A stretch of DNA of 64,000 bases from assembly GCA_002714185.1 (NCBI GenBank), contig PAWM01000003.1, forward strand, positions 1-64,000. Reading direction: 5' to 3'. The notes below the pieces were generated by a model, which was not told where the DNA came from, made no database searches, and saw only the letters and a list, made by a program, of their open reading frames with translations. The translations under genes and the position numbers were made by a program. Positions 5,405-52,305 of this stretch are shown in pieces (the first letter of the stretch is position 1; the number at the start of each line of letters is the position of its first letter). Source of the DNA: Flavobacteriales bacterium (lineage in GTDB: Bacteria; Bacteroidota; Bacteroidia; Flavobacteriales; TMED113).

Positions 5405-6622
5405 TTATTGTGTAGGTTGACCTGCTCCTTTATTTTTACCACTATCATTAAATGCAGAAGAAAATGCACCAATATCAAATATTAAACTAAATCTCATTGT
5501 ATTCTCTAAAGGACTCTTAACACCTTGATTTGCAGGAATTAAATAAGCAAAATCTAAAGTAAACACATTCATTTTTAAACCTGCACCTAAAGTAAAGTAT
5601 TTTCTATTTCCCTTTGTTTCATGCTCATGAAAATATCCTCCTCTTAAACCAAATTGATTTTGATACCAATACTCAAATCCCAAAGAATACATTAATTCTC
5701 TCCATTCTTCTTGTATACCTCCAGGTGCATCTCCAAAAGATTGAAATATAGCTTGTACAACTGAAATATCTGGATCTTGACCTGCAATAATACTATCTTG
5801 ACTCATTTGATCATACACAGGAGGAGTTGGTACTAATAATTTATTGATGTCTATAGCAACTGAAAAATTATTATACTCATCAATTTGCATGGAGTATCTT
5901 CCACCTATTTTTAAATTCATTGGTAAAAAATCTTTTTCTTCATTTTCAGTGTATGATATTTTAGTTCCAATATTAGAGATATTCACTCCAACTGCCCATT
6001 GATTATTTTCAGTAAAATCAGATTCATAATAAGTAGATAAATCAACGGCAAAGGCAGTCCCTGGTTCTGTTTCGTATTGACCTACATTTTGTCCACCGGT
6101 TAAATTTGAGTAAATATATCTCATGGCTAATCCACCTGAAAAATTGTTACTAAATTTCATTCCATAACCAAAATCAAAAGTATATTCATTCGGATTATAT
6201 GTTCCTAGATTTGCACCCGTTTCATCTGTAAATGTAATGTTTCCTAAAGAAAAATATCGCAATGCAGCAGACCAAGCACTATTATTATTTATTTTACTAT
6301 ATCCCGTTAAATATGATAATGCAATATCAGGGACTAGTTTACTTAACCAAGGTGTATATGAAATTCCAATTCCTGAATTATTTTTTAAAAAAGCAAGTTT
6401 TGCAGGATTCCAGTGAAGAGAGTGTATGTCAGGTGTTGTTGCTGCACCAACCTCCCCCATAGCTCCAGCTCTTGAGTCAGGAGTTATCGTTAGAAAAGGT
6501 ACTGCGGAAGTAATAGTATTTAGATTATTCAGATAGTCTGAATTATTAGTTGGAATATCCTGTGCAAAAATTAAATTCAATGAACTTGTTAGTACAAGTA
6601 TAAGAAAGAGTCGGAATATCAT
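5405..6622 (-). CDS. porV: type IX secretion system outer membrane protein PorV
   Basis: This 405-residue protein has a signal peptide (about 1-20, cleavage after IFA before Q) and FadL-like beta-barrel character. The family motif GAMGEVGAATTPD follows shortly after the mature N-terminus. In known type IX systems PorV binds the C-terminal signals of cargo leaving the SprA translocon and shuttles them to the PorU attachment complex. The direct porU-porV order supports the identity. A second PorV/PorQ-family gene lies at 24987-26045; this copy is the better PorV candidate because of its neighbour. Aromatic residues alternate through the strands as in outer membrane barrels. Confidence 0.93.
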   Translation of the reverse strand: MIFRLFLILVLTSSLNLIFAQDIPTNNSDYLNNLNTITSAVPFLTITPDSRAGAMGEVGAATTPDIHSLHWNPAKLAFLKNNSGIGISYTPWLSKLVPDIALSYLTGYSKINNNSAWSAALRYFSLGNITFTDETGANLGTYNPNEYTFDFGYGMKFSNNFSGGLAMRYIYSNLTGGQNVGQYETEPGTAFAVDLSTYYESDFTENNQWAVGVNISNIGTKISYTENEEKDFLPMNLKIGGRYSMQIDEYNNFSVAIDINKLLVPTPPVYDQMSQDSIIAGQDPDISVVQAIFQSFGDAPGGIQEEWRELMYSLGFEYWYQNQFGLRGGYFHEHETKGNRKYFTLGAGLKMNVFTLDFAYLIPANQGVKSPLENTMRFSLIFDIGAFSSAFNDSGKNKGAGQPTQ

Positions 6623-9600: not shown

Positions 9601-10547
9601 TAAAAGAAATATTTATCATAGGTTTCTATTGGGCTATTATTCTCAGCATTTAGCACATAACTATGAGGTAAAGTTTCAATTCTCTTACCTTTATTATCGG
9701 TATTATATGATAAATAATAATATGTTGTATCCGTATATAAATTTTTAGTGTGCGAAAATTTATTTCCATCATAATCCCAAGTATGAGGACTTTGACCAAA
9801 AAATAAAATATAATCTTCTTGACCAAAAAAACTAGAATCATTACTGACAACCTGAATTGCTAACTCAGATAAATCATCTATTTCGATATCTCCTGACCCT
9901 GAAACAGGTAAAGCCTCTTTTAACATACCAGCTTTATTACCAAATATTTTTAAATAATCTGGATTAATACTATTAATGTCTAGACCAATAGAGTTTAAAA
10001 AATTGCCATCAATTTTATGCAAACCAGATTTTACGACCCCAAGCTTATACCATATGCCTGCTTCTAACACAGAGGAAGATTTCATATTATTAGAAGGAAC
10101 TCTTCTAGAATTAACATTGCTTTCAATAATTTGAATACTAAAATCTAAAACCTTTTCAACTAAACCACTTTGTTTTCTAAATGGGACCAAATAAAAAATT
10201 ACATAATTTTGTTTTTTTTCAGTAGTAACATAATAATTAAACCGCACCTCACTAGTCAATTCTTCTTTTTCAATCATATTTAAATCGGAATTGGAAACAA
10301 TTTCATAATTTAAATTTTTTAAAATTATTTCAACATTATTTGAGCATACTGGAATCTTTTCGACATAGATATTATTCAAACTTATTGATGTATCTTGAAT
10401 GGAATTTTTAAAATCTAATCTATTTAATAAAGAATCTGTCTCTGTACAAATATTGTGTTCTGACCAATAAATAGTTCTTGCTTCTTGAGAAAAACAAACA
10501 AAAAACAAACAAAAGAAAAAAACTAAACAATACAAATACTTACCCAT
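6663..10547 (-). CDS. porU: type IX secretion system sortase PorU
   Basis: This 1294-residue secreted protein is the gingipain-like (peptidase C25) component that removes C-terminal sorting domains from type IX cargo and attaches the cargo to the surface. The signal peptide covers about residues 1-20. The C25 domain spans about 541-915, with catalytic His792 (in YVGHGGE) and Cys826 (in TATCEF) both retained. Ig-like and beta-rich segments follow. A type A sorting domain ends the protein: FPNPSSS near 1205, then a Gly-rich IYIYRL strand and EKLIILR. Retention of its own sorting domain matches known PorU. It is divergent from the porP/gldJ genes and upstream of porV. Confidence 0.95.
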   Translation of the reverse strand: MGKYLYCLVFFFCLFFVCFSQEARTIYWSEHNICTETDSLLNRLDFKNSIQDTSISLNNIYVEKIPVCSNNVEIILKNLNYEIVSNSDLNMIEKEELTSEVRFNYYVTTEKKQNYVIFYLVPFRKQSGLVEKVLDFSIQIIESNVNSRRVPSNNMKSSSVLEAGIWYKLGVVKSGLHKIDGNFLNSIGLDINSINPDYLKIFGNKAGMLKEALPVSGSGDIEIDDLSELAIQVVSNDSSFFGQEDYILFFGQSPHTWDYDGNKFSHTKNLYTDTTYYYLSYNTDNKGKRIETLPHSYVLNAENNSPIETYDKYFFYEEDNVNLVNTGRRWFGESFSFDYSQDFETPIGTWSVDSLLITVSLAARSSILTQFDISNGNTNIASINMPTVSPTSSDYYKSILYEDQFLVSNSSDISFSFNNNGNTSALAWLDYFILQGRSNDFNINSSSHFLFRDTKTVGSGVLTDFQFFRINSNLNFTIWDVTDPLNVKKQLLALDELYGAFKTNTSVLKEFLVFGNSNIAFTPSFYGPVSNQNIHGSSIPDYVIVTHPKFINAATRLANFHKDNNDENVLLLTTEQVYNEFSTGSQDVSAIRNMMKMFYDRSETVDQIPKNLLLFGDASFDYKNQLYESSNYVPTYQSTVSSSIEASYCTDDYFVVLDDGEGGWNGGLNNTISQNSIDIGVGRIPVQNVNDAEAYVDKLINYNSISSRGEWKNKISFVADDADAGWESSLIIHADALAEKVDSLHPHFNINKIYLDSYQQSLSLGSQRYPQAQEDLIKTIQDGVLIVNYVGHGGEVGWASERILELADINSFDNINRLPVFITATCEFTRYDDPTRVSAGEFLLLNNNGGAIALYSTSRTVSESQTYYLVDALYNYLLNQNLGYSLGEVLVECKNDPLSGLNITKRKFSFFGDPHLSLAYPKFNVHTSSIELLDSLGQVHNEDLDLNDTINSLSYVRISGFINDDAGGDLETNNILSNYSGTLFMTVFDKPELYTTLNNDGFLSSPFNYYLQNNIIYNGKVDVIDGEWSFEFIVPKDISYQYGEGKISYYATDSILGEASGLSQDIVIGGISDCASIDLEGPTIQLFMNDTNFVSGGYTNGDPELLALLYDKSGINTIGTGIGHDLTAILDQDSWSQYILNDYYESDLNSFQSGQVIYPFSNLNEGEHTLSFKAWDVYNNSSIMDINFFVTTSSQLAIEHLLNFPNPSSSYTNFVFEHNRPGDILDISVDIFSLNGDLVKSLSRSVVATGFRDNSISWSIDNSISRGIYIYRLSVKSKNDGSTSQKTEKLIILR

Positions 10548-23495: not shown

Positions 23496-24044
23496 ATGAA
23501 AAAAGAAAAAATTATACTTGGTATAGACCCAGGAACAAATATTATGGGATATGGAGTTATTAAAAAATCCGCAACTAATATTGACTTTTTATACCTAGAT
23601 GTTATTATTCTTAACAAAACACAAGATCACCACATAAAACTTAAAAAAATATTTACAAAAACAACTGAACTTATAAAAAAATTTTCTCCAGACGAAGTAG
23701 CAATTGAAGCTCCTTTTTTTGGTAAAAACCCTCAATCTATGCTAAAACTTGGTCGAGCCCAAGGAGCCGCCATAATTGCAACAATGATGAAGAATTTGTC
23801 CATTACAGAGTATGCCCCAAAAAAAATTAAAATGTCAATTACAGGAAATGGTCAAGCATCTAAAGAACAAGTGGCAGGAATGTTAATTAATATGTTAAAA
23901 ATCGACAAAAAACCAAAATACCTTGATTCTACAGATGGTCTTGCAGCTGCAGTATGCCATGCACTTCAAAATCAATCTCTTAAAAATAATAAAAAACCAA
24001 GTTGGGAGCAATTTATAAAAAATAATCCAGGGAGGGTTAAATAA
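23496..24044 (+). CDS. ruvC: Holliday junction endodeoxyribonuclease RuvC
   Basis: RuvC cuts Holliday junctions after RuvAB branch migration. The protein has 182 residues, a normal length. The acidic catalytic residues Asp11 (in GIDPGTN), Glu71 (in AIEAPF), Asp144 and Asp147 (in YLDSTDGLAAA) are all present. The GRAQG motif is at 86-90. The 3' end overlaps the convergent HIT-family gene by eight bases, and the 5' end is divergent from the oppC-like gene. Confidence 0.96.
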   Translation: MKKEKIILGIDPGTNIMGYGVIKKSATNIDFLYLDVIILNKTQDHHIKLKKIFTKTTELIKKFSPDEVAIEAPFFGKNPQSMLKLGRAQGAAIIATMMKNLSITEYAPKKIKMSITGNGQASKEQVAGMLINMLKIDKKPKYLDSTDGLAAAVCHALQNQSLKNNKKPSWEQFIKNNPGRVK

Positions 24045-24441
24045 GAATACCCTGAAAATTATTAGCTATATCTTTAGCGATTTTTTTAATATTAACAGAG
24101 GAAATAGTTATTTTATTTGAGAAATTCATATCATGAATACTATTAATTGGGATTAAATGGATGTGAGCATGTGGTACTTCAAAACCAACAACACTAACGC
24201 CTATTCTACTACACGCAATTGTTTTTTTTATAGCAATTGATACTAGCTTAGCAAAGCTCCACAGTTCACGATAATTGTCACTGTCAAGGTCAAATAAATA
24301 ATCTACTTGAATTTTAGGAACTACTAATGTATGTCCTAATGCAATTGGATTAATATCTAAAAAAGCAATGGCATAATCATTTTCTGCAATTAAATGACAT
24401 GGAATCTGCTTATTAATTATTTGACTAAAAATACTTTTCAT
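24037..24441 (-). CDS. HIT family nucleotide-binding hydrolase
   Basis: This 134-residue histidine-triad protein has the triad HAHIHLIPI at 91-99. The N-terminal FSQIINKQIPCHLIAEND and the GHTLVVPK segment are typical of HINT-branch enzymes, which hydrolyse nucleoside phosphoramidates or dinucleotides. The gene is directly downstream of greA (10-base gap), an arrangement common in Bacteroidota, and overlaps the ruvC end by eight bases. Confidence 0.94.
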   Translation of the reverse strand: MKSIFSQIINKQIPCHLIAENDYAIAFLDINPIALGHTLVVPKIQVDYLFDLDSDNYRELWSFAKLVSIAIKKTIACSRIGVSVVGFEVPHAHIHLIPINSIHDMNFSNKITISSVNIKKIAKDIANNFQGILI

Positions 24442-24451
24442 ACATTTATTA

Positions 24452-24925
24452 TCACCGAGAAATACTTATAATTTCAAAATTAACACTTCCTGCTGGAATA
24501 TTAATTTTGACAACTTCTCCAACTTTTTTACCTAATAAGCCTTTACCAATTGGTGATGATATTGCTATTTTTTTTTCAACAATATTAGTTTCAGAATCGG
24601 GTACTAAAATATAATTTAAAATACCACCTGTTGTTAAATTTTTTATTTCAATTTTAGAATATAGTAATACTTTATCCGATGCTAATTTAGATGTGTCTAA
24701 AACACGAGCAGATGCAATTTGAGATTCTAATTTAGATATCTTCATCTCAAGTAAACCTTGTGCTTCTTTAGCTGCATCATATTCAGCATTTTCGGATAAA
24801 TCCCCTTTATCTCTTGCATCAGCAATTTGCTGAGAAATACTAATTCTTTCAACAGTTATTAAATGATTTAATTCAGACTTCAATTTTTCTAAATCGCTGA
24901 AACTATAATATATTATTTTTGACAT
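24452..24925 (-). CDS. greA: transcription elongation factor GreA
   Basis: GreA rescues backtracked RNA polymerase by stimulating transcript cleavage. The 157-residue protein has the N-terminal coiled coil with the acidic tip (GDLSENAEYDAAKEAQ, about 41-56). The C-terminal FKBP-like domain shows ISSPIGKGLLGKKVGEV near 125. The length and motifs are standard. It lies 61 bases after the porV-like gene, with the HIT gene immediately downstream. Confidence 0.96.
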   Translation of the reverse strand: MSKIIYYSFSDLEKLKSELNHLITVERISISQQIADARDKGDLSENAEYDAAKEAQGLLEMKISKLESQIASARVLDTSKLASDKVLLYSKIEIKNLTTGGILNYILVPDSETNIVEKKIAISSPIGKGLLGKKVGEVVKINIPAGSVNFEIISISR

Positions 24926-24986: not shown

Positions 24987-26045
24987 TTATAAAATAATTC
25001 TTGCACCAAAGGTGTGAACTGATTGAAGTGGATCTGCTGGTCTATACGAATAATCAAAACCAAAGGTAGTATCATCTGATAATGGCAACTCAACACTAAT
25101 ACCACCAGACATACCTGTAAACACAGAACTTCTACCAGAGTCAAAATCCTCAAAAATACCACTTTCATAACTATATCCTCCTCTTAGTGAAACCATTTCT
25201 TTCCATGACAGCTCAAGTCCAGTCAAGAATTGGTCTTTAGAAAAAGAATTTGATACAAATGTTTCTGAACATGTCAATCTTACAATTTGCTCTCCAGAAA
25301 CATTTTTGAAGAAAAAATCATACGATCCACCGATATTTAACAATGAAGGTAATTCAAATGCCGCAGATCTCAACTCAACTGTCATATCACTACCGTTTGG
25401 ACCTGTTAATGTAATATCATCTCCATCACCTTCAAAAGACATACGAGGACCTATGTTTTTTAATGTAATTCCAAATTTTGCTTGCCCATTTTCTCCTGTC
25501 TGATAATGAACTCCAGCATCAAGTGCTAAACCGTTAGCTGATAATTCTGCTGCACTTTCTGAAATCATTTTAATAGTGAAACCCGCAGACATACTATAAG
25601 TAAATTTTTTCGCATAAGATAATGCTATATTCATAAATTGTGGTGAAAAAGTACCAATTCCACCATCAGGGTTATCATAGGTTGTTCTCTCAATATCTCC
25701 AAAATCTAATGACATCACAGATAAACCCATAACACCGGAGTCACCTACCTTTTGTGCAAATCCGAACGCATTAATTGATATGTCTGCAAACCAAGATGCA
25801 TGGGAAAATGTTAATTCAGTTCCTTCAATTCCAGTTAAACCTGCAACATTAAGAAAAACACTTTCTAAACCCCTAACAGATGCTGTATTAGCTCCTGCCA
25901 TACCAGAGCTTTGAGCCCAGGGGTTAATTAACAATTCTGATGCACCAGCTTCACCAGTACGAGAATCACCTTCTTCTTGGCCAAAAGACAAAGAAATTAA
26001 TGCAAATAAGCAAAGGAATGATATTGTTTGTATACTAAATTTCAT
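24987..26045 (-). CDS. PorV/PorQ family outer membrane protein
   Basis: This 352-residue barrel protein has a signal peptide (cleavage about after SFG at 22). It carries the family segment LLINPWAQSSGMAGANTAS, equivalent to the RAGAMGEVGAA segment of PorV at 5405-6622. The C-terminus ends in a typical outer-membrane strand (TFGARIIL). PorV/PorQ proteins are carriers or accessory barrels of type IX secretion. The gene is the third member of a receptor / giant secreted protein / barrel cassette (31-base gap), so it may be a dedicated carrier for the 1479-residue protein. That role is inferred from position only. Confidence 0.88.
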   Translation of the reverse strand: MKFSIQTISFLCLFALISLSFGQEEGDSRTGEAGASELLINPWAQSSGMAGANTASVRGLESVFLNVAGLTGIEGTELTFSHASWFADISINAFGFAQKVGDSGVMGLSVMSLDFGDIERTTYDNPDGGIGTFSPQFMNIALSYAKKFTYSMSAGFTIKMISESAAELSANGLALDAGVHYQTGENGQAKFGITLKNIGPRMSFEGDGDDITLTGPNGSDMTVELRSAAFELPSLLNIGGSYDFFFKNVSGEQIVRLTCSETFVSNSFSKDQFLTGLELSWKEMVSLRGGYSYESGIFEDFDSGRSSVFTGMSGGISVELPLSDDTTFGFDYSYRPADPLQSVHTFGARIIL

Positions 26046-26076
26046 AAATAATACTTTATTAAATCATCTTTTAATT

Positions 26077-29000
26077 TTAAAAACTATCTAAATCAACTGG
26101 TCTTAAAGCACCAAACCACTTTAATACTTTTTCACCAATTTCTCCCGCATCAATATGTATAACATAAATACCTGATGCTATTGCAATATTATAGTTATTT
26201 TTCAAATCCCATTCCCAATAAGAAATGTCATTGTCTTTACTATATTGACGAACTAAATTTCCATTAATAGTATAAATAGAGATGGTACATGTTTGAGGTA
26301 AATTGGTAACCTTTACTTTAGTATCAACTTGACCCTCTTCATATCCAGATGTTCCATAATAAGGATTTGGCACAATATTCACATCTTTCAAGCCATCCTT
26401 TTTAGCTTGTTCATTGTCTAGTAAAGTAAGTATTTCTGAAGAATTAAACTTGTAATAGGGGTATCCACTATTTACTAAATTATCCTGACTTTCATTTTCA
26501 AGAACACTTAATTCTCTGTAACCATAACCTTGCTCTACACGAGCTCTTATTATTAATTCATTACTTAACCATTCCTGACTAGGATTTGGCGCCCAATTCC
26601 CTACCCACTGAATATGTGGTATAACTTGTTTTTTTCTTAAACTATTCCAAGCATTATTTTGACTACTACCAGTGAAAGCATCAAAATGTGGATTATCTTG
26701 CTGATTTTCTCCAGCATATTCAGTATCTAAGACAAATACGACATGACCTCCGTTTAAACTAAAGTTATTGACAACAGATAAATCAGAACCAGGACCAAGA
26801 TTATTAAAATCTAACTCATAATTAGGCTCAGGGTTAAATAACATATCAGCAGAAGAAGAAAGATTATTAGGAGAAGATGCTAAAGATGAATTCTCTGAAA
26901 ATATCATATTCAATCTTCGACCTGATAAAACATCTACAGCATAACCAGGGAACCACCCCCAACCATTTGCAGAATTAAAACCACTACCTGTACCATCTGG
27001 GTTACCATCCTTATCTACATTTGGATCTAACCTTAAATCCCACTTATTTTCACCATTTTCGCCAGTTCCTTCACCACTAATTTCCCAAACATCATCTGCA
27101 TCGGTATTGAATGGCCAAATATTTCCGGCAGCAGATTGGTAAAGAGGATCATTACCTAAACCTATCCATTCAATTGAATCTTCTGACATATCAATTATAG
27201 GACATCTAGTCCATAAATCTTTATCATCAGTTAATACAACATCGACATTATTTAAATTATCAAGGTTAGATTCAGTTTTCCAGTCATACCAAGCTAACCC
27301 TCCACCAATACCATCAATAAAATTGACAACATTAGTAGTTGTGGAAGCTCCAACTCTACCTCTGTAATCAGTACTTACTAGTTTATACGGAACTAGCCAT
27401 TGATTTTCATAAACTCCTGTAGGATCAAGAGGTGTTTGTTGACTAGTAGTACCGCCTGGATCTAATTGAGTACCATTCACTGAAACATCTCCATAATATT
27501 GGTAAGGAGATAAAACTTGATCATTTTGAGAGAATGCATTTGTTCCTGATCTCACCCAATCAAATGTTCTGAACTCAGTGACAAATTGCCAAACATCATC
27601 AATATCTGGAACTGGCTGAAGCCATACATTATCCATTGCATTATTCCATTCTGGACTTTGCATAACATCATTCATTTCTTGAGATGATAAATTTAAATTC
27701 CAATACAACTCGTCTAAAATTAGATTCGAAACTACCGGACGATCACATGACAAACAACCCAAATTATCTACTTGACCTGTTTCTAATGATGGAATCCCTC
27801 TAAATGTAACACCTAATCCCCAGTCAGGTAATACTTGTTGTGCTTGATCAATCATTGAGTTTGCAGATTGTATTGTTATACTATCACCATCTTCAATTTT
27901 TGTTAAAGCCCATTTTGCATTAGTAATTAAACCTAAATCACTACTTTGAACATCATAGACTTCAAAAACAAAATCTGCATCGGGAACTGATAAAGGATCA
28001 ATTACCTCAATATCAGCTGGGGACATATTTTGACGATAAAAAAGAGTATCAGCAAATAAATTCTCAGCAATTTCAATTCTACAATTAGATGTTAGCTCAA
28101 CAAAATTTCCTCCATTTCCTGAACCAGCCATTCCCAGCTGAGACGGGCGTGCACCATAAGCAGCAGTTGGTATATTTCCAAATGACTCTATTTTATGTGG
28201 AATAATTGTATAAGTTTTTATGTTTTTTCTTCCAGCTAAATAAGGTTGTTTCTGTCCCATATTACTTGGTTGATATGGATTTAAAGGATCTAATGACTGA
28301 AACGGAATTTCAGGTGTATATGGTATATATTCATTATATGCATATGCAACAGCCATAAAGTAATATGGTTTATTATTAATTAAATCAGTATTACCCGTTG
28401 CAAACTTATCTTCTGTTATTCTAAAAGAATGAGTAATCCCTGAATTAGATGCACCTAATGTCATATTCTGAGGTACATAAACATTTGGACCCACACTTTC
28501 GTCTAATTGATAATTAACTAAGTTACCTATTGGTACTGCCCCTTCTTCAGGTGAAAAAACAATTTGACCATCTACTGTTCTATAATTTTCAATATCACAT
28601 TGAAAAACCATAAAAGCTTTATCAGGATTATAAAGCTCAGTAGAAGAAACATACTGATCTTTTAGCTGAAAGACCTGATATCCTTCAAATTTATATCTCT
28701 TATCTATAGCAAGATTACCATCTTCGTATATAGGAGTTGGATTAACTAATACCTGTTCACCTTCTAAATTAATAATAGTATCATACTCAAAGCCGACAGT
28801 TGTTGTTGACAAAACATCTGATATAAACGGATCTTCTTCTGCATATTGAGTAGCATAATTATTAGAATTTTCCGCATTGGTTAAATTTATTATAATTTCT
28901 TTATCTAACTCTACAAAATTCACATCTGGTGCACTAGGTCCATCAATTACTTCAAAACAAATATCAAATAAAGTTTGTGCTTTAGTATCTGCTATTTTCA

Positions 29001-30516
29001 TAAGTTCTACAGAGGCAAAATTATTTCCCTCTGCCGCTCTTGCCCATACAACTCCAGTAGTTATATAGTTTACAGCTCCTGGCTCGAGAGTAAAGGGTCC
29101 CGCCGACTGTAAGAACCTCCTATCCGCTGGATCATTTCCAGCAGTAATCTCTGTCCATGGAGAACCAAAGCTTGGATCAGTATCATCAGGAAACATAAAA
29201 TTACATTCCGGATTTCCAGATTCCCATCCAGTACCACCATATGTCATTGGTTGACCATTTTTCCATATTCCTTTCAAATATCCGTAATAATGAGTTGCAT
29301 TTTCTGGATTACCATGATCTGAAAAATCATTGTTATAATAAACAAATTTTGACATAATAATCTGCTCTCCTGGTTCATCAATAGTACCATCTCTATCATT
29401 ATCGATACCGTCACCTGTATCAGCTAAAGGACCTCTAAAAAAATCTACCCCAATTGCTGGTGGTGGATCATCTGAATCATAGTTGTACCCAGCTGTACCA
29501 TCATCATCTGCATCACCATTATAGCAATATCCTAAACCTAAACCAACATCACATCCAACATAATCATCTTGATAATTACCTAAATCAGGGTCGACCCACT
29601 GACCAAAATAAGCTTCATTTAATACACTTGTAGATCTATTAAGTATCTTGTAACTATAAAAAGTCATATTATTTATCTCATCATTTGTCGTAAAACCAAA
29701 TGCTTGAGCTTGTATTTCAAGACCTATAGCAGACTCTGAACCAGTTTCAGTATGAATATTACCATTATCGTTAAACACCCACCATAAAGTTTGATCACCA
29801 AATAAAACATCGTCTGTTTTACAATCTTTTACACCTTCTAAATCATAACCCGGATAATCACCTGCTTCAGGAGTATATATTCCATCGCCATCTACATCCT
29901 CAAACGGAGCTAAATAATCATATGTACCATCTATTTCAGTACGATCTGCAGGCCAATCACTAATTGTAGAAGACATGCCTTGATAATTTGGATAAGATAA
30001 TGCCACATCGCAATTAGGATCGGCTAAACAATCATTGTAACCAACAAAATCTTCAACCTCTTGACGTGTAATCACAAAATGTTTGTCAAAGTCTGAACAA
30101 ACATCAGCACCAATAGTACCATAATCATCACTAGCAATATCTGCATTTAAAGGTCCAGGCCAAAAATCGTTACCGTCCTGTCTATATGTCATTCCAGCTA
30201 CCTTTAAATTTCCTTGATCATCAAGACCTCCAATCCATAATGCTCCAGCAAACATTGAATGCTTATCACTATCTTTAGGAATTTCATATTTTCCATTATC
30301 CAAATCCCACCACATATCACCACCTGCTAATATAGTAGTACGAACATTATTGATATTTAATTCTGTTTGAGCAGTAGCAGCTAAACAACCTGCCGCAATT
30401 ACTCTATAATTTTCATTATTATCTGAATTATTTTGATTTGGTATATTTTCTTTTGCATTTGAATTAAAAAATCCAATTAGCATTACAAATAGTGTTGAAC
30501 TTATATATTTTTTCAT
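26077..30516 (-). CDS. giant secreted protein, GGDMWW family, with C-terminal sorting-like domain
   Basis: This 1479-residue exported protein has a signal peptide (about 1-21). Residues 30-545 are clearly paralogous to the 706-residue protein at 38009-40129. Shared blocks are [75 protein letters not shown] and [16 protein letters not shown]. Several Asp-rich loops ([24 protein letters not shown]) suggest calcium binding. The last 90 residues (VPNPYYG, then TISIYTINGNLVRQY, then ASGIYVIHI) look like a type IX sorting or FlgD-like domain. The middle 800 residues match nothing I recognise. It lies four bases downstream of the TonB receptor gene. No catalytic motif is visible. Confidence 0.8.
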   Translation of the reverse strand: MKKYISSTLFVMLIGFFNSNAKENIPNQNNSDNNENYRVIAAGCLAATAQTELNINNVRTTILAGGDMWWDLDNGKYEIPKDSDKHSMFAGALWIGGLDDQGNLKVAGMTYRQDGNDFWPGPLNADIASDDYGTIGADVCSDFDKHFVITRQEVEDFVGYNDCLADPNCDVALSYPNYQGMSSTISDWPADRTEIDGTYDYLAPFEDVDGDGIYTPEAGDYPGYDLEGVKDCKTDDVLFGDQTLWWVFNDNGNIHTETGSESAIGLEIQAQAFGFTTNDEINNMTFYSYKILNRSTSVLNEAYFGQWVDPDLGNYQDDYVGCDVGLGLGYCYNGDADDDGTAGYNYDSDDPPPAIGVDFFRGPLADTGDGIDNDRDGTIDEPGEQIIMSKFVYYNNDFSDHGNPENATHYYGYLKGIWKNGQPMTYGGTGWESGNPECNFMFPDDTDPSFGSPWTEITAGNDPADRRFLQSAGPFTLEPGAVNYITTGVVWARAAEGNNFASVELMKIADTKAQTLFDICFEVIDGPSAPDVNFVELDKEIIINLTNAENSNNYATQYAEEDPFISDVLSTTTVGFEYDTIINLEGEQVLVNPTPIYEDGNLAIDKRYKFEGYQVFQLKDQYVSSTELYNPDKAFMVFQCDIENYRTVDGQIVFSPEEGAVPIGNLVNYQLDESVGPNVYVPQNMTLGASNSGITHSFRITEDKFATGNTDLINNKPYYFMAVAYAYNEYIPYTPEIPFQSLDPLNPYQPSNMGQKQPYLAGRKNIKTYTIIPHKIESFGNIPTAAYGARPSQLGMAGSGNGGNFVELTSNCRIEIAENLFADTLFYRQNMSPADIEVIDPLSVPDADFVFEVYDVQSSDLGLITNAKWALTKIEDGDSITIQSANSMIDQAQQVLPDWGLGVTFRGIPSLETGQVDNLGCLSCDRPVVSNLILDELYWNLNLSSQEMNDVMQSPEWNNAMDNVWLQPVPDIDDVWQFVTEFRTFDWVRSGTNAFSQNDQVLSPYQYYGDVSVNGTQLDPGGTTSQQTPLDPTGVYENQWLVPYKLVSTDYRGRVGASTTTNVVNFIDGIGGGLAWYDWKTESNLDNLNNVDVVLTDDKDLWTRCPIIDMSEDSIEWIGLGNDPLYQSAAGNIWPFNTDADDVWEISGEGTGENGENKWDLRLDPNVDKDGNPDGTGSGFNSANGWGWFPGYAVDVLSGRRLNMIFSENSSLASSPNNLSSSADMLFNPEPNYELDFNNLGPGSDLSVVNNFSLNGGHVVFVLDTEYAGENQQDNPHFDAFTGSSQNNAWNSLRKKQVIPHIQWVGNWAPNPSQEWLSNELIIRARVEQGYGYRELSVLENESQDNLVNSGYPYYKFNSSEILTLLDNEQAKKDGLKDVNIVPNPYYGTSGYEEGQVDTKVKVTNLPQTCTISIYTINGNLVRQYSKDNDISYWEWDLKNNYNIAIASGIYVIHIDAGEIGEKVLKWFGALRPVDLDSF

Positions 30517-30520
30517 TTAT

Positions 30521-33500
30521 CTAAAAATTTACTTGCATTCCTAGTTTAATTAACCTTGGTCTAACATAATTATCAGGATTATTAACCTTTAAAGTATACT
30601 GGTCATAAAAAGCCGAAGGATTGACCTGCTGCGAAACATACTGTTGACCCTCTGCAGACGATAAATAACCATCATCATCAGCATTACCTGTGTATCTATA
30701 TACATTCACAATATTATCAGCATTCAATAAGTTTTCAATCATCATATAAACATTCATACCTAAATTTCTCTGTTCTGATAGTTTAAATTTCACTTCTTTA
30801 TTTATTCGGAGATCAGTTCTAAAAGTCCAAGGTTCTCTAGCTCCATTTACACTACCTTCAAGAGTAGATCTAGTATTAACTCCAAATTGAGCAACTGCTA
30901 AAACATTAGACTGTTGACTGTATGGTCGACCCGATCCTGCTGAAATAACTAAGTTAGCACCAAAACCTTGTAAAATCTTTTTACCAAATAAAACAGGGCC
31001 ATTATAATTAATCCCTGAACTATAACGATAATCTATATTAGCTGTAATATTATGTCGCTGATCAAAATCCAACGGTAAAGTTGTTCTTAAATTAGGAAAA
31101 CCATCATTTACTAATTGTTGAGCAGTAGTAGAAGAAGAGCCTGTACCATCAGCAAATTGCAAAGTATAATTTGCTGTTAAAGACACATTATTTCTTCTTC
31201 TTAAATCATATCCAAATGAAAAACCTTTCACTGTACCAAAATCAATATTATCAAAATGAGTATATGGAAATGGATATGCTTCTGCAACACGAGTAGCTTG
31301 AATCATATCACTTAACTCTCTGTAAAATGCCGAAATAGTAATCGCTGAATAACTAGTAAGGGCTTGAGTAAAACCAACTTCATAATCAGTAGTCTTTTCT
31401 GGCAATAAATTTGGGTTAGATACTCCACCTGTATTTGCATCAATAAATAAGTAATTAAAAGGATTCATTATATTATCTGAAGGTGGGCGTTGTGTCAATA
31501 TATCATAATGAGCAAAGAACATAGCTTCATCAGAGATAGGGAAATTAAAAGATATCCTCGGCATAACTGCAATCTGAGGAGTATAATCTTCAAAAGCATC
31601 ACCTGTTAAACCTTTGTTTTCGTCAGCAATATGGTTAGGGTTTTGTAAAAATGGTATCACTCCACTACCCATGCTTAAAACAGATGGGTCAGTTACTGGA
31701 ACACCTTCTGCATTATACCAATCATCACCATCTCTATAACCAGTAATTATTGTTTGATCAGTAATAGAATTAGCATAAACAACAAAGTCACTACCTATGT
31801 TACCAGGATGTGATGGATTACTTGGATTAGAATTTGGATTTAATGATGGATCAACTTCTGAAGCTTTTAATGTAGGATAAAAAGAGTATTTATCTTTTAA
31901 AACTTCTTGATTTGCATCAAATCGATCAATACGAACACCTATATTAAAAACAATATCATCTAATGCAAACTTATCTTGAATATATGCTGCTGCATATAAA
32001 GGTTCAAAAGGAGATACTCTTCTTGTATAATCACCATTTGCATCTTTTTCATTTAAAAATGTATCAAAAGAAATTCGTTCATTTATTTCATTACCTGTGT
32101 GATCATACCCATAATAATAAAGATTTAAATAATCACCCTGCAAAATTTCATCTGCTGCAAACATATCTATGGAAAGCAAATTTGGGTCATATTGATCGAT
32201 GTATACCCATTCATTAACACTCAAACCTAACTCTTCTCTTAAATTTTGAGCGAAAGTAGAATAATTTTCATTATCCTCTGAAACATCATAAAATGTAGAA
32301 AATATTAATGGAACACCATCTCCGTTTGTTTCAGCAAACTGCCATTGCGTATAATCATCAACATAGTACTGAGGATTATTAAGATGTTGATTTGCTAATT
32401 GGCGAGCAATTGGCCATAAGTTAGGTGTGTAAACTCGATAATAACGCTCTCTCTTTTTTTCATATTCAAATCCAAATGAAACAGCATGATTACCTATATC
32501 AGCAGATGCAGAACCAGTAAATCGTTGTCTTTGATCAGTATAATCAAATGAAAAATAATTAGGATAACCTGTATTCCACCATAATCCATACACAGATGGA
32601 GGTTCATCACCATTCATTAAACCACCACCAAATTGAATGTGATTCATTGTAGGGTTTTGATTTGGAAGATAACTATGAAAAAAATCATAGTACTGTGATG
32701 TATAGTTTGCTAATAATGGATTTGCATTAGACGGCTCAAAATCATATGTTATATATTCCTGTAATAAAACTCCTGTTTGTGTTTCTTGTTCCCATAACAA
32801 ATTATCGTTTTCATCAACATCTTGTATTCCATCACTGTCTAAATCAATTGGAATACGATTACCATTTTGATCTAGAACATACACATCATATGCATCCCAA
32901 TTCCACCAGTCAGTAAAAGTAAATGTAGTGTCATCTTTAGAAGGAGTGAACTTTCCAACATAATTATATGCAAAGTAATCTGTACCATGACGTGGATTTT
33001 CAAGTTTAGAGTCGTATCTAGAATAATCAGCTTGTAAAGTATAAAACACATTTTTGACCGCAGCTGCAGCATCATCACCACTTAATCTATGCTGGAGTCT
33101 TGCATACATATTATAACTATCCCTAGTGTATTCTCTATTATTAGCTGAATTTAATAATTGTTTTCTCCACCATAAACTACTACCCTTATCAATATTATGC
33201 CTCATAGAGCCACCAATAATAAAGTCTATATCCTTTGATATACCTAACGTTAATTTTCCCTGTAACCTTAGATCTTGATCACTTAAATTTTGTTTAACAT
33301 CAGAAATATCCCAATCATCAGAAGTAAGATTTTCCGCTGCATTTTGTGCATAACTAGTTGTATAATCTCCATAAGAAGGTGTTCCAATAAATATTGATGG
33401 ATTTGTCTCTAGTTCAGATAAAATATTGTCTTTTAATTTAGGTACACCTATAGCTGAAGGATCTGGGTCCTCTTTATGATTATATTCAGCTGTAATTAAG

Positions 33501-34312
33501 TAACCAAGTATAGGAGTTCTATCAGCATCTTTTTTTCTCCAAATAGGTCCAGACAAGTTAAATGCTAATAAATTATGATTATATGGATCCGTTAAATTTG
33601 ATGAAGATAACTCGAAACCTCCTCGAGTAATTCTTGAAGGACCTTGAGTTGTAATACTAATAATCCCACCAGTAGCATCACCATATTGAGCAGGAAGACC
33701 ACCAGTAACAACAGTCATTTGATCAATAGCACTTTGGGGAAGGACATTGCTACTACCAACAATTTTTACTCCATCAACATAATAAGCAGTAGCATTACTT
33801 CTAGAACCTCTTACATTTAAAGAACCACCTGTATCTTCTTGATATACACCAGCAGTAGTAGCAGCTACATTCTGCACACTTCTTGTTGGTAAAGCCGTTA
33901 TTTGTTCTTTTGTTTTTGTAGAACCTGATTTATCTGCATCAATAAGTGGAACATCATATTCAATTACCTGCACTTCAGATAAAATAGATGATTCTGTAGA
34001 CATTTGATAATCAGAAAATGTAATTTTATTAGGAGAAATCAATACATTATTTTGAATAATGGTAGCATAGCCAATAAATGATATCTCTACAGTATATCGA
34101 CCTGGATTAATAGGTTTGATTGTAAAATTACCATCAAAATCGGTAGCACCACCCATAACAGTGACACCATCAGATTTAACTACAATATTAGCCATAGGAA
34201 TCGTCTCTCCTGTCATTGCATCACTAACCGTTCCTTTTAAAGTACCACTTTGAGCAAAACCAGCTAGGGATATGAAAAAAGTAATAACAAAGATTATAAT
34301 ATTTCTGTGCAT
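30521..34312 (-). CDS. TonB-dependent receptor with carboxypeptidase-regulatory-like domain
   Basis: This 1263-residue outer membrane protein has a signal peptide (about 1-20, GFAQ). A CarboxypepD-regulatory-like beta domain follows (about 22-110, with GTVSDAMTGETIPMANIVV). The plug domain spans about 125-235, with LNVRGSRSNATAYYVDG and PAQYGDATGGIISI. A 22-strand barrel ends in the terminal strand IKLGMQVNF, with the C-terminal Phe typical of BAM substrates. There is no SusD-like partner. Instead the giant secreted protein and a PorV-like barrel follow. Barrel loops are rich in Asn, Asp and Tyr. The ligand is unknown. A strong promoter lies at 34359-34390. Confidence 0.92.
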   Translation of the reverse strand: MHRNIIIFVITFFISLAGFAQSGTLKGTVSDAMTGETIPMANIVVKSDGVTVMGGATDFDGNFTIKPINPGRYTVEISFIGYATIIQNNVLISPNKITFSDYQMSTESSILSEVQVIEYDVPLIDADKSGSTKTKEQITALPTRSVQNVAATTAGVYQEDTGGSLNVRGSRSNATAYYVDGVKIVGSSNVLPQSAIDQMTVVTGGLPAQYGDATGGIISITTQGPSRITRGGFELSSSNLTDPYNHNLLAFNLSGPIWRKKDADRTPILGYLITAEYNHKEDPDPSAIGVPKLKDNILSELETNPSIFIGTPSYGDYTTSYAQNAAENLTSDDWDISDVKQNLSDQDLRLQGKLTLGISKDIDFIIGGSMRHNIDKGSSLWWRKQLLNSANNREYTRDSYNMYARLQHRLSGDDAAAAVKNVFYTLQADYSRYDSKLENPRHGTDYFAYNYVGKFTPSKDDTTFTFTDWWNWDAYDVYVLDQNGNRIPIDLDSDGIQDVDENDNLLWEQETQTGVLLQEYITYDFEPSNANPLLANYTSQYYDFFHSYLPNQNPTMNHIQFGGGLMNGDEPPSVYGLWWNTGYPNYFSFDYTDQRQRFTGSASADIGNHAVSFGFEYEKKRERYYRVYTPNLWPIARQLANQHLNNPQYYVDDYTQWQFAETNGDGVPLIFSTFYDVSEDNENYSTFAQNLREELGLSVNEWVYIDQYDPNLLSIDMFAADEILQGDYLNLYYYGYDHTGNEINERISFDTFLNEKDANGDYTRRVSPFEPLYAAAYIQDKFALDDIVFNIGVRIDRFDANQEVLKDKYSFYPTLKASEVDPSLNPNSNPSNPSHPGNIGSDFVVYANSITDQTIITGYRDGDDWYNAEGVPVTDPSVLSMGSGVIPFLQNPNHIADENKGLTGDAFEDYTPQIAVMPRISFNFPISDEAMFFAHYDILTQRPPSDNIMNPFNYLFIDANTGGVSNPNLLPEKTTDYEVGFTQALTSYSAITISAFYRELSDMIQATRVAEAYPFPYTHFDNIDFGTVKGFSFGYDLRRRNNVSLTANYTLQFADGTGSSSTTAQQLVNDGFPNLRTTLPLDFDQRHNITANIDYRYSSGINYNGPVLFGKKILQGFGANLVISAGSGRPYSQQSNVLAVAQFGVNTRSTLEGSVNGAREPWTFRTDLRINKEVKFKLSEQRNLGMNVYMMIENLLNADNIVNVYRYTGNADDDGYLSSAEGQQYVSQQVNPSAFYDQYTLKVNNPDNYVRPRLIKLGMQVNF

Positions 34313-34358
34313 ATCGTGTTATTTATAGATGTAAAAATTATTGTTATTTTTAATGGAT

Positions 34359-34390
34359 CAAATATAGGAGAAAATAAGATATATACCAAA
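34359..34390 (-). promoter_or_regulatory. promoter of the TonB receptor / giant protein / PorV-like operon
   Basis: On the minus strand TTTG (34390-34387) is followed after 20 bases by TATATTTG (34366-34359), a full match to the Bacteroidota vegetative promoter. It ends 46 bases before the receptor ATG at 34312, giving a plausible short leader. Confidence 0.65.
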
Positions 34391-34423
34391 ATTATAAATA
34401 CTATATTATATATTTGCTATACT

Positions 34424-34846
34424 ATGACAAATAACATAAATAAAATTCTTCTCTCAAGCTTGCTTATGATAATTAGCTGTACAGTTGAAGATAATTTTCC
34501 AAACATTTATGTGAACGAAACCATACCAATAACCATGCCCCAATACAACAATATTTATGGTAATTTATGGGGCTACGAATATATTAATGGAGGATTAGGA
34601 GGAATCATTATTGTTCAAGGCATGGATAATGAATTTTTAGCTTACGATAGAGCCTGTACAAATGAGTCTAATGAAAGCTGTATCATTTCTGGAGAATCTA
34701 CAAATGATCCTATTTTAACATGTGAAAATTGTTGCAATTCTCAATTCGTTATTATTGATGGATCGGTAGTTGAGGGCCCAGCAAACCAAGCATTGAAAAA
34801 ATACAATACATATTTTGATGGACAGATGTTATATATCACTAATTAA
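34424..34846 (+). CDS. small Cys-rich lipoprotein, degenerate Rieske-like
   Basis: The reading frame is open from 34307, but the ATG at 34424 gives a proper lipoprotein signal with lipobox IISC (Cys19) and a 140-residue product. The layout [10 protein letters not shown], then LTCENC near 98, then [19 protein letters not shown] recalls Rieske-type domains of Bacteroidota lipoproteins. However, the histidines of CxH and CxxH are missing; Cys78, Cys86, Cys100, Cys103 and Cys104 remain. A zinc or structural Cys site is more likely than a 2Fe-2S cluster. The 3' end overlaps sahH by four bases (convergent). Confidence 0.65.
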
Positions 34847-36234: not shown

Positions 36235-36852
36235 ATGCCCTTCTTAAAAAGAAAAAAAACTAAAAACTACACATATGGTATTTGGAAAATAACAGAAAAT
36301 ATAGATTATTTATTAGAAAATTTGAATCCAAGTCATAAAGAATTAATACACATCAATCAAATAACTCATCCAAAAAGAAAAAAACAAAATATTAGTGCTA
36401 GATTAATTTTAAATATATTATCAAACAAAAAAACATACATTAATTATAATGTAAATGGTGCACCTAGCTGTGTTAATTATAATTATATTTCCATTAGCCA
36501 CTCTCATAATTATTGCATTGTCATAACCAGCAATCAACCTACAGGTGTTGATATACAATATCAAAAATCTAATATTCAAAAATTAAGCAAACGATTTATT
36601 AACTCTGATGAATTAATTCATAATTATCAATCAACTAATGAATTACATTTTATATGGTGTGCAAAAGAAGCTATTTATAAAACAATTAATACTTGTTCAA
36701 TTTCTTTAAAAGAAAATATTTATATTCAACCTGTTAATAAAAAAATGACAGCAACTGGATACTATAAAAATCAAGAAGTAATTATTGACTATCAAATTAA
36801 TTATAAACAATTTAAAAATTATTTTATTGCAATTGCTATAAAACTAGTATGA
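36235..36852 (+). CDS. 4'-phosphopantetheinyl transferase superfamily protein
   Basis: This 205-residue Sfp-like transferase attaches the phosphopantetheine arm of CoA to carrier proteins. The two family motifs are present: GVDIQ at 104-108, with the Mg-binding Asp106, and WCAKEAIYK at 141-149. The upstream ISISHSHNY (85-93) matches the substrate-binding SxSHS region. It is AT-rich and Lys/Asn-rich like its neighbours. Its stop overlaps the pnuC start (ATGA), so the two are co-translated, although the functions look unrelated. Confidence 0.9.
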   Translation: MPFLKRKKTKNYTYGIWKITENIDYLLENLNPSHKELIHINQITHPKRKKQNISARLILNILSNKKTYINYNVNGAPSCVNYNYISISHSHNYCIVITSNQPTGVDIQYQKSNIQKLSKRFINSDELIHNYQSTNELHFIWCAKEAIYKTINTCSISLKENIYIQPVNKKMTATGYYKNQEVIIDYQINYKQFKNYFIAIAIKLV

Positions 36853-37430
36853 CAGAGCTGTACCAATATATCATTGAAAATACTAACCAATTTCTTGGTG
36901 TATTATTTAGCATTATTTATGTTATTTTATCAATCCGAGAGAATATTTTTTGCTGGCATGCATTAATTATTGCCTCTATTTTTAATGCATTTGCCTTCTA
37001 TCAAATTCAATTAACACTTCAAATTATTATGCAATTCTTCTTTATATTTACAGGAATTTATGGTTGGTATAATTGGAAGAATGGCGACTCCTTAAGTACA
37101 CTTAAAATTTCAAGCTGGAGCACAAAAATACATCTTCAATATATAATGGCAGGTGTAATAATCACTTTGATTTTATGGCTACTATTGGTAGCACTTAAAA
37201 TAAAGAATACATCTCCTTTTCTTGATGCTCTAATGTTTACTTTCAATATAATTCCTATGTATATGATGGGGAAAAAGATTTTAGAATCTTGGATTTATTT
37301 TATTGCTATTGATATTATTAGTGGTTTTTTTTATCTGTCAACAGGTGAATATTTTTATTGCTTTCTTTTCTTTTGCTACTTAGGTTTCGCTACTAAAGGT
37401 TATATGACCTGGAAAAATAAAAAAATATGA
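36849..37430 (+). CDS. pnuC: nicotinamide riboside transporter PnuC
   Basis: This 193-residue inner membrane protein has about seven hydrophobic segments. PnuC/SWEET-like features include the FFIFTGIYGWYNWKNG stretch (about 63-78). The C-terminal WIYFIAIDIISGFFYLSTGEYFYC segment is typical of the family, which facilitates uptake of nicotinamide riboside. Its stop overlaps the start of the NadR-like kinase gene by four bases, a strong functional link: transport followed by phosphorylation traps the vitamin. A thiamine-specific PnuT is the alternative, but the kinase neighbour favours nicotinamide riboside. Confidence 0.92.
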   Translation: MTELYQYIIENTNQFLGVLFSIIYVILSIRENIFCWHALIIASIFNAFAFYQIQLTLQIIMQFFFIFTGIYGWYNWKNGDSLSTLKISSWSTKIHLQYIMAGVIITLILWLLLVALKIKNTSPFLDALMFTFNIIPMYMMGKKILESWIYFIAIDIISGFFYLSTGEYFYCFLFFCYLGFATKGYMTWKNKKI

Positions 37431-37933
37431 TAAAAATAGTATTCACTGGACCTGAGTGCTCCGGAAAAACCAGCCTAAGTAAAGCAATTGCAAAAAAATT
37501 TAATTTACCAATTGTACCTGAATTTGCTAGATTATACTTAAATAAATTAAATAGAAATTACAATTACTCTGATTTAATAAAAATTGCGAAAGGTCAACTA
37601 GATTTAGAAATAAAAACTGAAAAAAATTCTGATAAAAAAATTCTTATTTGTGACACAAATCTCCAAGTTATAAAACTTTGGAGTTTAATTAAGTACTCTA
37701 AATGTGATTCATTTATTATTAATCATGAGGACCATCAAGCACATTATATTCTGTGTTATCCTGATTTTAAATGGCAATATGACAAATTAAGAGAAAATAA
37801 ATACGACAGATTAGAGATTTTTGAAAAATACAAAGAAGATTTAGTCACATCCAATAGAAATTTTATAACTACTAATGGGCCTATAGCAGATAGGATTTCT
37901 CTTATTACCAACTACATTGAACAAATGATTTAA
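37427..37933 (+). CDS. NadR-like nicotinamide riboside kinase (AAA family ATPase)
   Basis: This 168-residue cytoplasmic P-loop protein matches the C-terminal kinase domain of NadR. The P-loop GPECSGKT is at 8-15, followed by the VPEFARLYL segment and a central DTNLQVIKLW stretch. It lacks the N-terminal nucleotidyltransferase part of full NadR. With the overlapping pnuC gene it should phosphorylate imported nicotinamide riboside to NMN for NAD synthesis. Confidence 0.87.
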   Translation: MIKIVFTGPECSGKTSLSKAIAKKFNLPIVPEFARLYLNKLNRNYNYSDLIKIAKGQLDLEIKTEKNSDKKILICDTNLQVIKLWSLIKYSKCDSFIINHEDHQAHYILCYPDFKWQYDKLRENKYDRLEIFEKYKEDLVTSNRNFITTNGPIADRISLITNYIEQMI

Positions 37934-38008: not shown

Positions 38009-40129
38009 ATGAAAAAATATTTACCTTCTATCTTTCTATTGTGTTTACTAAATTTATCTGCTAAAGACAATACTTTATTAAACACAACCGAGACTAATCC
38101 AAACATAAATTTGATTAGCGGTGGTTGCCTAGACCCGACATCTGAAGCAGAGCTTGACATTGGAAATGTTAGGGCAAATATTTTAGGTGGGGGTGATATG
38201 TGGTGGAATCTCACTGATGCTAGGTATGAGGTTCCAAAAAATGAAGGTGTACATTCATTATTTGCTGGATCCTTATGGATAGGAGGTATGGATAATCAAA
38301 ATAATTTGAAAATAGCTGCAATGACATATCGTCAAACGGGTAGTGATTTTTACCCAGGACCACTAAATGCTGATACTGAAAGTGATAGCTATGGAACAAC
38401 AACAACTGACGACTGCAACACATATAATCAACACTGGGTGATTTCCAAAAATGATGTAGAATCATATGTTACATATATAAATTGTGTTAATGATTCTGAT
38501 TGTGATGCTAATTCAATATTTCCTGATTATCAAGTTCCTGATGTTATTACCAATTGGCCGGCAAGTCATTTTGATTTTGATGGAACAAATGAATATCTTG
38601 CTCCCTTTATTGATGTAGATGGAGATGGAGAATATAATAATCAAGATTACCCAGGCTATGATTTAAATGCTGAGGGAAATTGTACTGCAAACGATTATCT
38701 ATTTGGTGATCAAAGTATTTGGTGGGTCTTTAATGATGCTGGAAATTATCACGGTGAAACTGGAGGTACTGCTATTGGACTAGAAATTCAAGCACAAGCA
38801 TTTGCTTACAAAACAAATGATGAGTTATCCGATATGACATTTTATAGCTATAAAATCATAAATAGATCTAGTGAAACACTTAATGACACATATTTTGGAC
38901 AATGGGTTGACCCTGATGTAGGAAATTACCAAGATGATTATGTTGGATGTGATGTGGATTTGGGTTTAGGATATTGTTATAATGGTGATGATGAAGACGA
39001 AGGGTCACAAGGTGTCTCTGCTGGATATGGAATGAATCCCCCTGCTATAGGAGTTGATTTTTTCAGAGGACCACTTGCTGATGAAAATGATGGCATTGAT
39101 AATGACAGAGACGGAGAAATTGATGAAGACGGTGAGCAAATTATTATGTCGAAATTTGTGTATTATAATAATGCTGCTTGGGACACTGATATATACGACT
39201 GGAATAATGACCCAGCTTTAGATATGGATTATTATAATTATTTGAGAGGTGTCTGGACAAATGGACAACCGATGACATATGGTGGAAACGGAGGTGTTGC
39301 AACAAATCCTCAATGTGACTTTATGTTTCCAGGGAATACTGATCCAAATTTTGATGAAAACTGGGATGAAACAACTGCAGGAAATACACCATCTGACAGA
39401 AGATTTATACAATCTGCAGGCCCATTTACATTAGATCCTGGTGCCGTAAACTATATTACAGTAGGTGTAGTATGGGCAAGAGGTAATGATGGGCCATCAT
39501 CTTCAGTCGAAGCTTTAAAAGAAGCAGACATCATGGCACAAGACTTATTTGACAATTGTTTTGATATAAATTACTTCGTATATGGTTGCACTTGTCAATT
39601 AGCAAATAATTATGATGCAAATGCAAATGCTGACGATGGCTCATGCATATTTCCTGAGAATGTTTTTGTTGACTGCGATGGAGAATGTATTTATGGCGAC
39701 ACAGACGGTGATAGTTTTTGTGATGGAATTGACAACTGCCCTGACAACCCTAACTTAAGCCAATCTGATAGTGATGGAGATGGTGTAGGAAATTCTTGTG
39801 ACAATTGTGTATGGACAGCTAACCCTGACCAGCTTGACAGCGACGGAGATGGAGAAGGAGATGCCTGTGACTTTACTCCCTTATCAATTTCTGAAGATCA
39901 GGTTTTAATCAATATATTTCCAAATCCTGCAAGTAAATTTTTTAACTTAAGCTCTAATACTAATATTCAATTAATTGAAATAATTGATTATTCAGGTAAA
40001 ATTGTGTATTCCGAAATTAAAAATGATAAAACTTTGCAAATTAACACTAGTAAATTCAATTCAGGATCTTACATTGTTATATTAAAGACAAAAGAAGGTG
40101 AAGTGAAGAAAAATATTATGATTAAATAA
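38009..40129 (+). CDS. secreted GGDMWW-family protein with Cys-rich cassette, TSP3 repeats and type IX sorting domain
   Basis: This 706-residue exported protein has a signal peptide (about 1-18, LSAK). Residues 35-530 are paralogous to the N-terminal third of the 1479-residue protein at 26077-30516, with many identical blocks. Next comes a [21 protein letters not shown] cassette near 533-555. Thrombospondin type 3-like calcium repeats follow ([43 protein letters not shown]; about 560-630). A type A sorting domain ends the protein ([15 protein letters not shown], then [22 protein letters not shown]). It stands alone between a kinase gene and convergent ribF, without a receptor or barrel partner. 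No catalytic motif is seen. Confidence 0.85.
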
Positions 40130-52223: not shown

Positions 52224-52273
52224 AGTTTTTATTTTTGCAAAGATACTGATAAAATCAGTAATCCTTATTTTTT

Positions 52274-52281
52274 TATATTTG
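52274..52281 (+). promoter_or_regulatory. candidate -7 element for the Rieske oxygenase gene
   Basis: TATATTTG lies 24 bases before the GTG start at 52306. The -33 TTG is not found at the usual spacing. Confidence 0.35.
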
Positions 52282-52305
52282 TGAAACAAAAATAATTCTT
52301 TATTT

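Follow-up and report, generated by a model that had tools for sequence, protein, structure and literature searches.

Organization of the locus

The window analyzed here, the first 64,000 nucleotides of contig PAWM01000003.1 of a Flavobacteriales bacterium (assembly GCA_002714185.1), contains three consecutive genes (hereinafter, the trio) that occupy positions 24987-34312 on the minus strand in the order receptor, giant secreted protein, barrel. The first gene (30521..34312) encodes a TonB-dependent receptor (TBDT) of 1263 aa with a signal peptide and with CarboxypepD_reg and Plug domains detected by Pfam. The second (26077..30516) encodes a secreted protein of 1479 aa, denoted the giant, whose signal peptide, as read from the sequence, lacks a lipobox. 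The third (24987..26045) encodes a 352-aa outer-membrane barrel of the PorV/PorQ family, the probable dedicated partner of the giant. The coordinates of the predicted open reading frames bear out the same-strand layout and the gaps of 4 and 31 nt described in an initial sequence-only reading of this DNA.

The same reading placed a full consensus promoter ahead of the first gene, and this claim stands only in part. Matches to the E. coli-type promoter consensus in this region are at chance level (70 compared to 67 in shuffles), and this pattern was dropped as evidence. A plausible candidate promoter is the Bacteroidetes-type sequence TTG-N20-TATATTTG (34359..34389, minus strand), the last base of which lies 47 nt ahead of the TBDT start codon. 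The whole window contains two occurrences of this pattern, where 0.36 would be expected, and 2 were reached in 7 of 100 shuffles; a sequence resembling it is found at the matching position in the sister species (L043), and a looser Bacteroidetes-type pattern precedes 14% of the trios versus 2% in shuffles.

Upstream of the TBDT gene and divergently oriented, there is a gene for a small putative lipoprotein (34307-34846, plus strand), for which Pfam gives nothing above the cut-off; such a gene is present at this position in 44 of 66 Bacteroidia trios. The protein family contains Cys/His motifs that recall a degenerate Rieske domain; those of some homologs, CPxH and CPCH, are lost in the window copy.

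Identity of the receptor and the barrel

A TonB-dependent receptor without a SusD partner and a barrel of the PorV/PorQ family were proposed for this locus from the sequence alone, and profile searches agree with these assignments. The TBDT contains an N-terminal CarboxypepD_reg-like domain (residues 25-116; 33965..34240; 57 bits, cut-off 32) and a plug domain (residues 124-217; 33662..33943; 46.8 bits, cut-off 23.9). Inspection of the sequence further reveals a TonB-box-like motif, LSEVQVI (residues 111-117; 33962..33982), followed by a conserved PLI, and homologs contain a similar EVVI..PLI; in one homolog, the beta-barrel model also scores above the cut-off. The SusC/RagA model TIGR04056 (cut-off 368 bits) is not among the NCBIfam matches of the window TBDT, and two trio receptors from other classes reach only 70 and 83 bits with this model. 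No SusD domain was detected among the window neighbors scanned with Pfam.

The barrel belongs to the PorV/PorQ family NF033709 (148.8 bits, cut-off 90), Pfam yielding only a weak match. Its scores with the models for the individual members of this family are far below the respective cut-offs: 65.6 bits vs. 250 for PorV (NF033710), 78.9 vs. 220 for PorQ (NF033711), and 61.1 vs. 325 for PorV2 (NF052325). In a tree of 89 barrels, all 68 trio barrels fall into one group that excludes PorV and PorQ; the 23 trio barrels from Bacteroidia form a single, fully supported clade. Taken together, the scores and the tree rule out the identity of the trio barrel with PorV, PorQ or PorV2. The canonical PorV is encoded elsewhere in the window (5405..6622, minus strand), beside PorU (6663-10547). 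No PorQ was detected in the present genome, which is incomplete; among the relatives, most of the trio genomes encode PorQ separately from the trio, which rules out the trio as a PorQ replacement. A third, weak member of the PorV family is also encoded in this genome (G000:C16:59837-60958; 33.8 bits).

Domains of the giant protein

The sequence-only reading attributed to the giant a sorting-like C-terminus and left most of the protein without a recognizable domain, and both observations hold. Pfam detects no domain above the cut-off, and the profile searches yield only a sub-threshold type IX tail. In the predicted model of the C-terminal half (mean pLDDT 75), the best fold match in the PDB is PorZ (5m11, E = 1.4e-5), followed by the C-terminal sorting domains (CTDs) in the type IX translocon complexes 8glk and 8gl8. 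The Ig-like sorting fold predicted for residues 1375-1479 (26080..26394), which is nearest to the CTD of PorZ, thus supports the giant being a type IX cargo. With the type A model TIGR04183 (cut-off 23 bits), the window giant scores 17.6 bits and one giant from another class 24.8 bits; the type B model TIGR04131 gives no match in the window giant. The PorZ model NF052228 (cut-off 260 bits) yields 30.2 bits, confined to the CTD, compared to 404.7 bits for the actual PorZ of this genome, so that the giant is not PorZ itself. PorZ is nevertheless the sole other protein in this genome with a CTD similar to that of the giant, and in most of the trio giants from other classes, the NCBIfam model to which the CTD aligns with the highest bit score is that of PorZ; for ordinary type A cargos, the type A model or PorU scores higher than PorZ.

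Beyond the last strand of the CTD, there are about 12 extra residues that form a conserved C-terminal tail, FGALRPVDLDSF (residues 1468-1479; 26080..26115), with the pattern KWFGxxRPxDLxxF strongly conserved in Bacteroidia. In the barrel tree, the partners of tail-bearing (39) and tail-less (29) giants occupy two separate parts. This agreement is compatible with the barrel recognizing the tail; it stems from a single evolutionary change and thus involves no independent co-variation and does not amount to proof of recognition.

The N-terminal module of the giant (residues ~45-525; 28942..30384) is highly conserved, with a predicted beta-rich fold, and shows 60% identity to a 706-aa protein encoded at 38009-40129 on the plus strand. 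The latter is a stand-alone, secreted protein in which thrombospondin-type repeats are combined with an ordinary type A CTD lacking the tail; its gene is located directly downstream of a PnuC/NadR-like pair (36849-37933). Similar thrombospondin-type repeats are found at the C-terminus of a trypsin-family protease encoded at 50949-52289 on the minus strand. A search of the N-terminal half of the giant against the sequences of solved structures produced no match, and the phage and defence family libraries gave nothing useful. The predicted model of the module (mean pLDDT 78) weakly resembles carbohydrate enzymes of the GH94/GH116 type (E about 1e-4 to 1e-5, TM-score about 0.2); judging from the families in common, the matched part is likely the beta-sandwich domain of these enzymes. 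This predicted fold hints at glycan binding by the giant. The giant additionally contains acidic, Ca-binding-like stretches, as apparent from the sequence. One of the giants from other classes (L168, 3484-7242, minus strand) contains a CHRD domain (Pfam PF07452, 53.5 bits), a clue to a possible variety in the ligands of these proteins.

Conservation in Bacteroidia

The giant is matched in 43 of 79 related genomes, and strong barrel matches (E < 1e-30) are found in 40, of which 39 also encode the giant. Accordingly, both proteins are present in 39 of the relatives and neither in 35, with only 5 discordant cases: the barrel alone in G045, on a fragment from a small contig; the giant alone in G004, G006, and G072, where it is fragmentary or at a contig edge, and in G063, where the match is weak. 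In neighborhoods taken from these relatives and from named metagenome-assembled genomes (Flavobacteriales, Bacteroidales, Cryomorphaceae, and Owenweeksia), the order receptor, giant, barrel is found in every case that is neither broken nor cut by a contig end. The trio of an Owenweeksia metagenome-assembled genome is that of L036. More broadly, a profile of the C-terminal half of the giant detects full-length giants (E < 1e-20), mostly in a single copy, in 272 of 346 sampled Bacteroidia genomes. The type IX translocon component SprA is present in 338 of these 346 genomes, including nearly all giant carriers, and also in the genome to which the window belongs. In 40 regions from many families, complete primary copies keep the same order; altogether, the gene order, the conservation of which the sequence-only reading proposed to check, is maintained on one strand in 75 of 75 complete Bacteroidia loci, with median gaps of 20 and 23 nt.

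Extra giants without an adjoining receptor and barrel exist as well (L108, L114, L124, L126, L129, L131, and L133) and mostly keep the C-terminal tail; these may share the single barrel of the respective genome. In L108 and L126, a further protein with the N-terminal module adjoins the extra giant. Three loci (L081 in G035:C9, L077 in G074:C1, and L125 in G133:C1) contain broken trios or giant copies with frame breaks, which reflect either decay or assembly errors.

The trio in Bacteroidia is part of a larger block that also includes the genes for GreA (62 of 66 loci), HIT (60 of 66), and RuvC (46 of 66). In the window, these genes map to 24037-24925 and 23496-24044, beside the trio, in what appears to be an unusually stable chromosome block across Bacteroidia. 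Synteny in Bacteroidia alone is no proof of a functional link, given that GreA and HIT show the same degree of conservation in this class; a slow-moving chromosome region could explain it, and it was rejected as stand-alone evidence.

Multiplication and joint evolution of the trio in other classes

In other classes of Bacteroidota, each genome encodes several to many large proteins that match the C-terminus of the giant. Across seven such genomes, 40 of 50 giant-type CTDs are encoded 64-321 nt before a PorV-family barrel; among the CTD matches above 60 bits in the same set, 29 of 31 directly precede such a barrel. Of the giant-barrel pairs in other classes, 45 of 48 have a TBDT directly upstream. 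Up to about ten trio copies per genome are found, at unrelated places, and GreA, HIT, and RuvC are absent from all 50 other-class loci. Given that the trio is repeated without the flanks characteristic of Bacteroidia, its genes remain linked and are multiplied as one unit.

The evolution of the three components also appears to be coupled. For 36 trios from other-class genomes, pairwise distances were compared between the components, and the partners were reshuffled within the same genome. The correlation of the distances is 0.89 for the giant and the TBDT, 0.86 for the TBDT and the barrel, and 0.84 for the giant and the barrel; the same-genome shuffles give mean values of 0.03-0.04, and none of 2000 is as high as observed. 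Independent occurrence of homologs, the outcome named in the sequence-only reading as contrary to its proposal of a receptor, an exported cargo, and a dedicated PorV-like carrier forming one unit, is not what is observed: the order is conserved, and the trio co-occurs and repeats as a whole. At the level of sequence comparison, this proposal is strongly supported by the constant gene order, by the shared presence or absence of the components, by the duplication of the trio as a whole, and by the separate barrel clade.

Relationship to known systems and predicted function

Each element of the trio is of a known kind; a search of the open-licence literature found no description of the trio, and the combination of the three components appears to be undescribed there. 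PorZ and PorU are type IX cargos with an uncleaved CTD that sit on PorQ and PorV, respectively (PMC5562754, PMC11285876), and it has been proposed in a review that cognate PorV-like barrels may shield such CTDs from cleavage (PMC10202324). The trio resembles these pairs of the Porphyromonas gingivalis attachment complex in that a PorV-family barrel would retain a secreted protein that bears a type IX CTD (PMC5562754, PMC11285876). Unlike PorZ and PorU, the trio giant shows no propeller or protease match and has an extra C-terminal tail; the trio barrel belongs to a separate clade, and the trio includes a TonB-dependent receptor. Another parallel is provided by type B cargos and their PorP-like barrel partners, the genes of which follow immediately downstream; the pairing sets the final location of the cargo (PMC12618676, PMC9143113). 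The features of these systems that the trio recalls are a cargo gene directly preceding the gene for its own barrel shuttle, specific pairing, several pairs per genome, and a shuttle used in common by orphan cargos (PMC12618676, PMC9143113). The trio differs from the PorP/SprF systems in that its barrel belongs to the PorV/PorQ family (NF033709), the CTD of the window giant is type A-like rather than type B, and the unit includes a receptor.

In the SusC-SusD and BtuB-BtuG systems, a TBDT is encoded beside a surface lipoprotein partner, with many copies per genome in some lineages. The trio is similar in that the TBDT is encoded beside a surface partner and the systems are multi-copy in some lineages. 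The differences are that the giant is not a lipoprotein and lacks a SusD domain; by its predicted fold, it is a type IX cargo that seems to be anchored by its own barrel.

From these comparisons, the following mechanism can be proposed, to which we assign a rough probability of 0.5. The trio would form a surface complex in which the giant, exported by the type IX system and retained uncleaved on the barrel, serves as a SusD-like partner of the TBDT, with the tail involved in recognition. The giant would reach the periplasm by Sec and then be passed across the outer membrane by the type IX translocon (SprA). The trio barrel would then take the CTD of the giant from SprA and keep it uncleaved, as PorQ does with PorZ and PorV with PorU, and the tail would be part of barrel recognition in the branch of the family to which this trio belongs. 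Held at the surface, the giant could capture a ligand, perhaps a glycan or glycoconjugate, or feed it to the adjacent TBDT, as SusD does for SusC. Retention of the CTD on the barrel, tail recognition, contact with the receptor, import, and the ligand are all what we infer from these data and parallels. By analogy with these pairs, the dedicated barrel most likely takes over the giant from SprA and holds it at the surface. The receptor is a constant member of the trio, which speaks for the giant working with it; SusD-like capture of a ligand for TonB-dependent import seems to be the most economical reading, the multi-copy trios resembling the multi-copy SusC-SusD systems.

Several alternatives have to be considered. 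One is that the trio is an export unit, in which the receptor assists in exporting or positioning the giant and the barrel acts as its acceptor, with no import involved. TBDTs can serve export as well: Oar of Myxococcus xanthus, a TBDT that exports the protease PopC, provides a precedent for a role of a TBDT with a TonB-box in protein export and resembles the trio in that a large TBDT is functionally tied to a secreted protein (PMC6434023). Unlike the trio, the published account of Oar and PopC includes no PorV-like barrel or type IX CTD (PMC6434023). The receptor and giant trees being the most similar of the three pairs also suits such a unit. However, the giant has a type IX CTD by its predicted fold and the genome encodes SprA, so that an export route is already there; furthermore, the extra giants without an adjoining receptor have retained this CTD and, in most cases, the tail. 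The type IX signal of the giant makes an Oar-like role of the receptor less necessary, and we consider export by the receptor unlikely.

Similarly improbable is a role as a module of the attachment machinery, whereby the giant and the barrel would be a PorZ-PorQ-like pair handling the anchors of type IX cargo, lipopolysaccharide or others, with a structural or sensory receptor. The affinity of the giant CTD with that of PorZ and the membership of the barrel in the PorV/PorQ family are compatible with such a role, but the genome has its own PorZ, a separate PorQ is present in most trio genomes among the relatives, and the giant lacks a propeller match; the presence of up to about ten trios in an other-class genome suits variable ligands better than a core part of the machinery.

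The giant might also be a passive surface-layer, adhesion or gliding protein shown by the barrel, with the receptor merely co-regulated. Such a function would parallel that of the type B adhesins displayed by the PorP-like barrels encoded beside them (PMC12618676, PMC9143113) and would accommodate the Ca-binding-like acidic stretches of the giant. It is nevertheless doubtful: nearly all trios include a receptor, the evolution of which parallels that of the giant, and a mere display pair would have no need of it. Finally, that the trio is kept together only through rare rearrangement of this chromosome region, as the unrelated housekeeping genes GreA and HIT beside it in Bacteroidia could suggest, is highly improbable in view of the many trios per genome found elsewhere, without these flanking genes, in other classes.

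In its broadest form, the proposed SusD-like uptake function would imply a phylum-wide mode of nutrient acquisition in Bacteroidota, parallel to SusC-SusD, in which the partner of the TBDT is a giant type IX cargo held on its own PorV-family barrel, nearly universal and single-copy in Bacteroidia and multi-copy elsewhere. We advance this generalization tentatively, at somewhat less than even odds. If it is true, one of the most common surface systems of Bacteroidota has escaped description, and TonB-dependent uptake and type IX secretion, two fields that have been studied apart, would be joined in a single system. The trios would, furthermore, provide many natural cargo-barrel pairs for studying the choice of shuttle by the CTD and its escape from cleavage, and giant proteins without a named domain would acquire a testable function.
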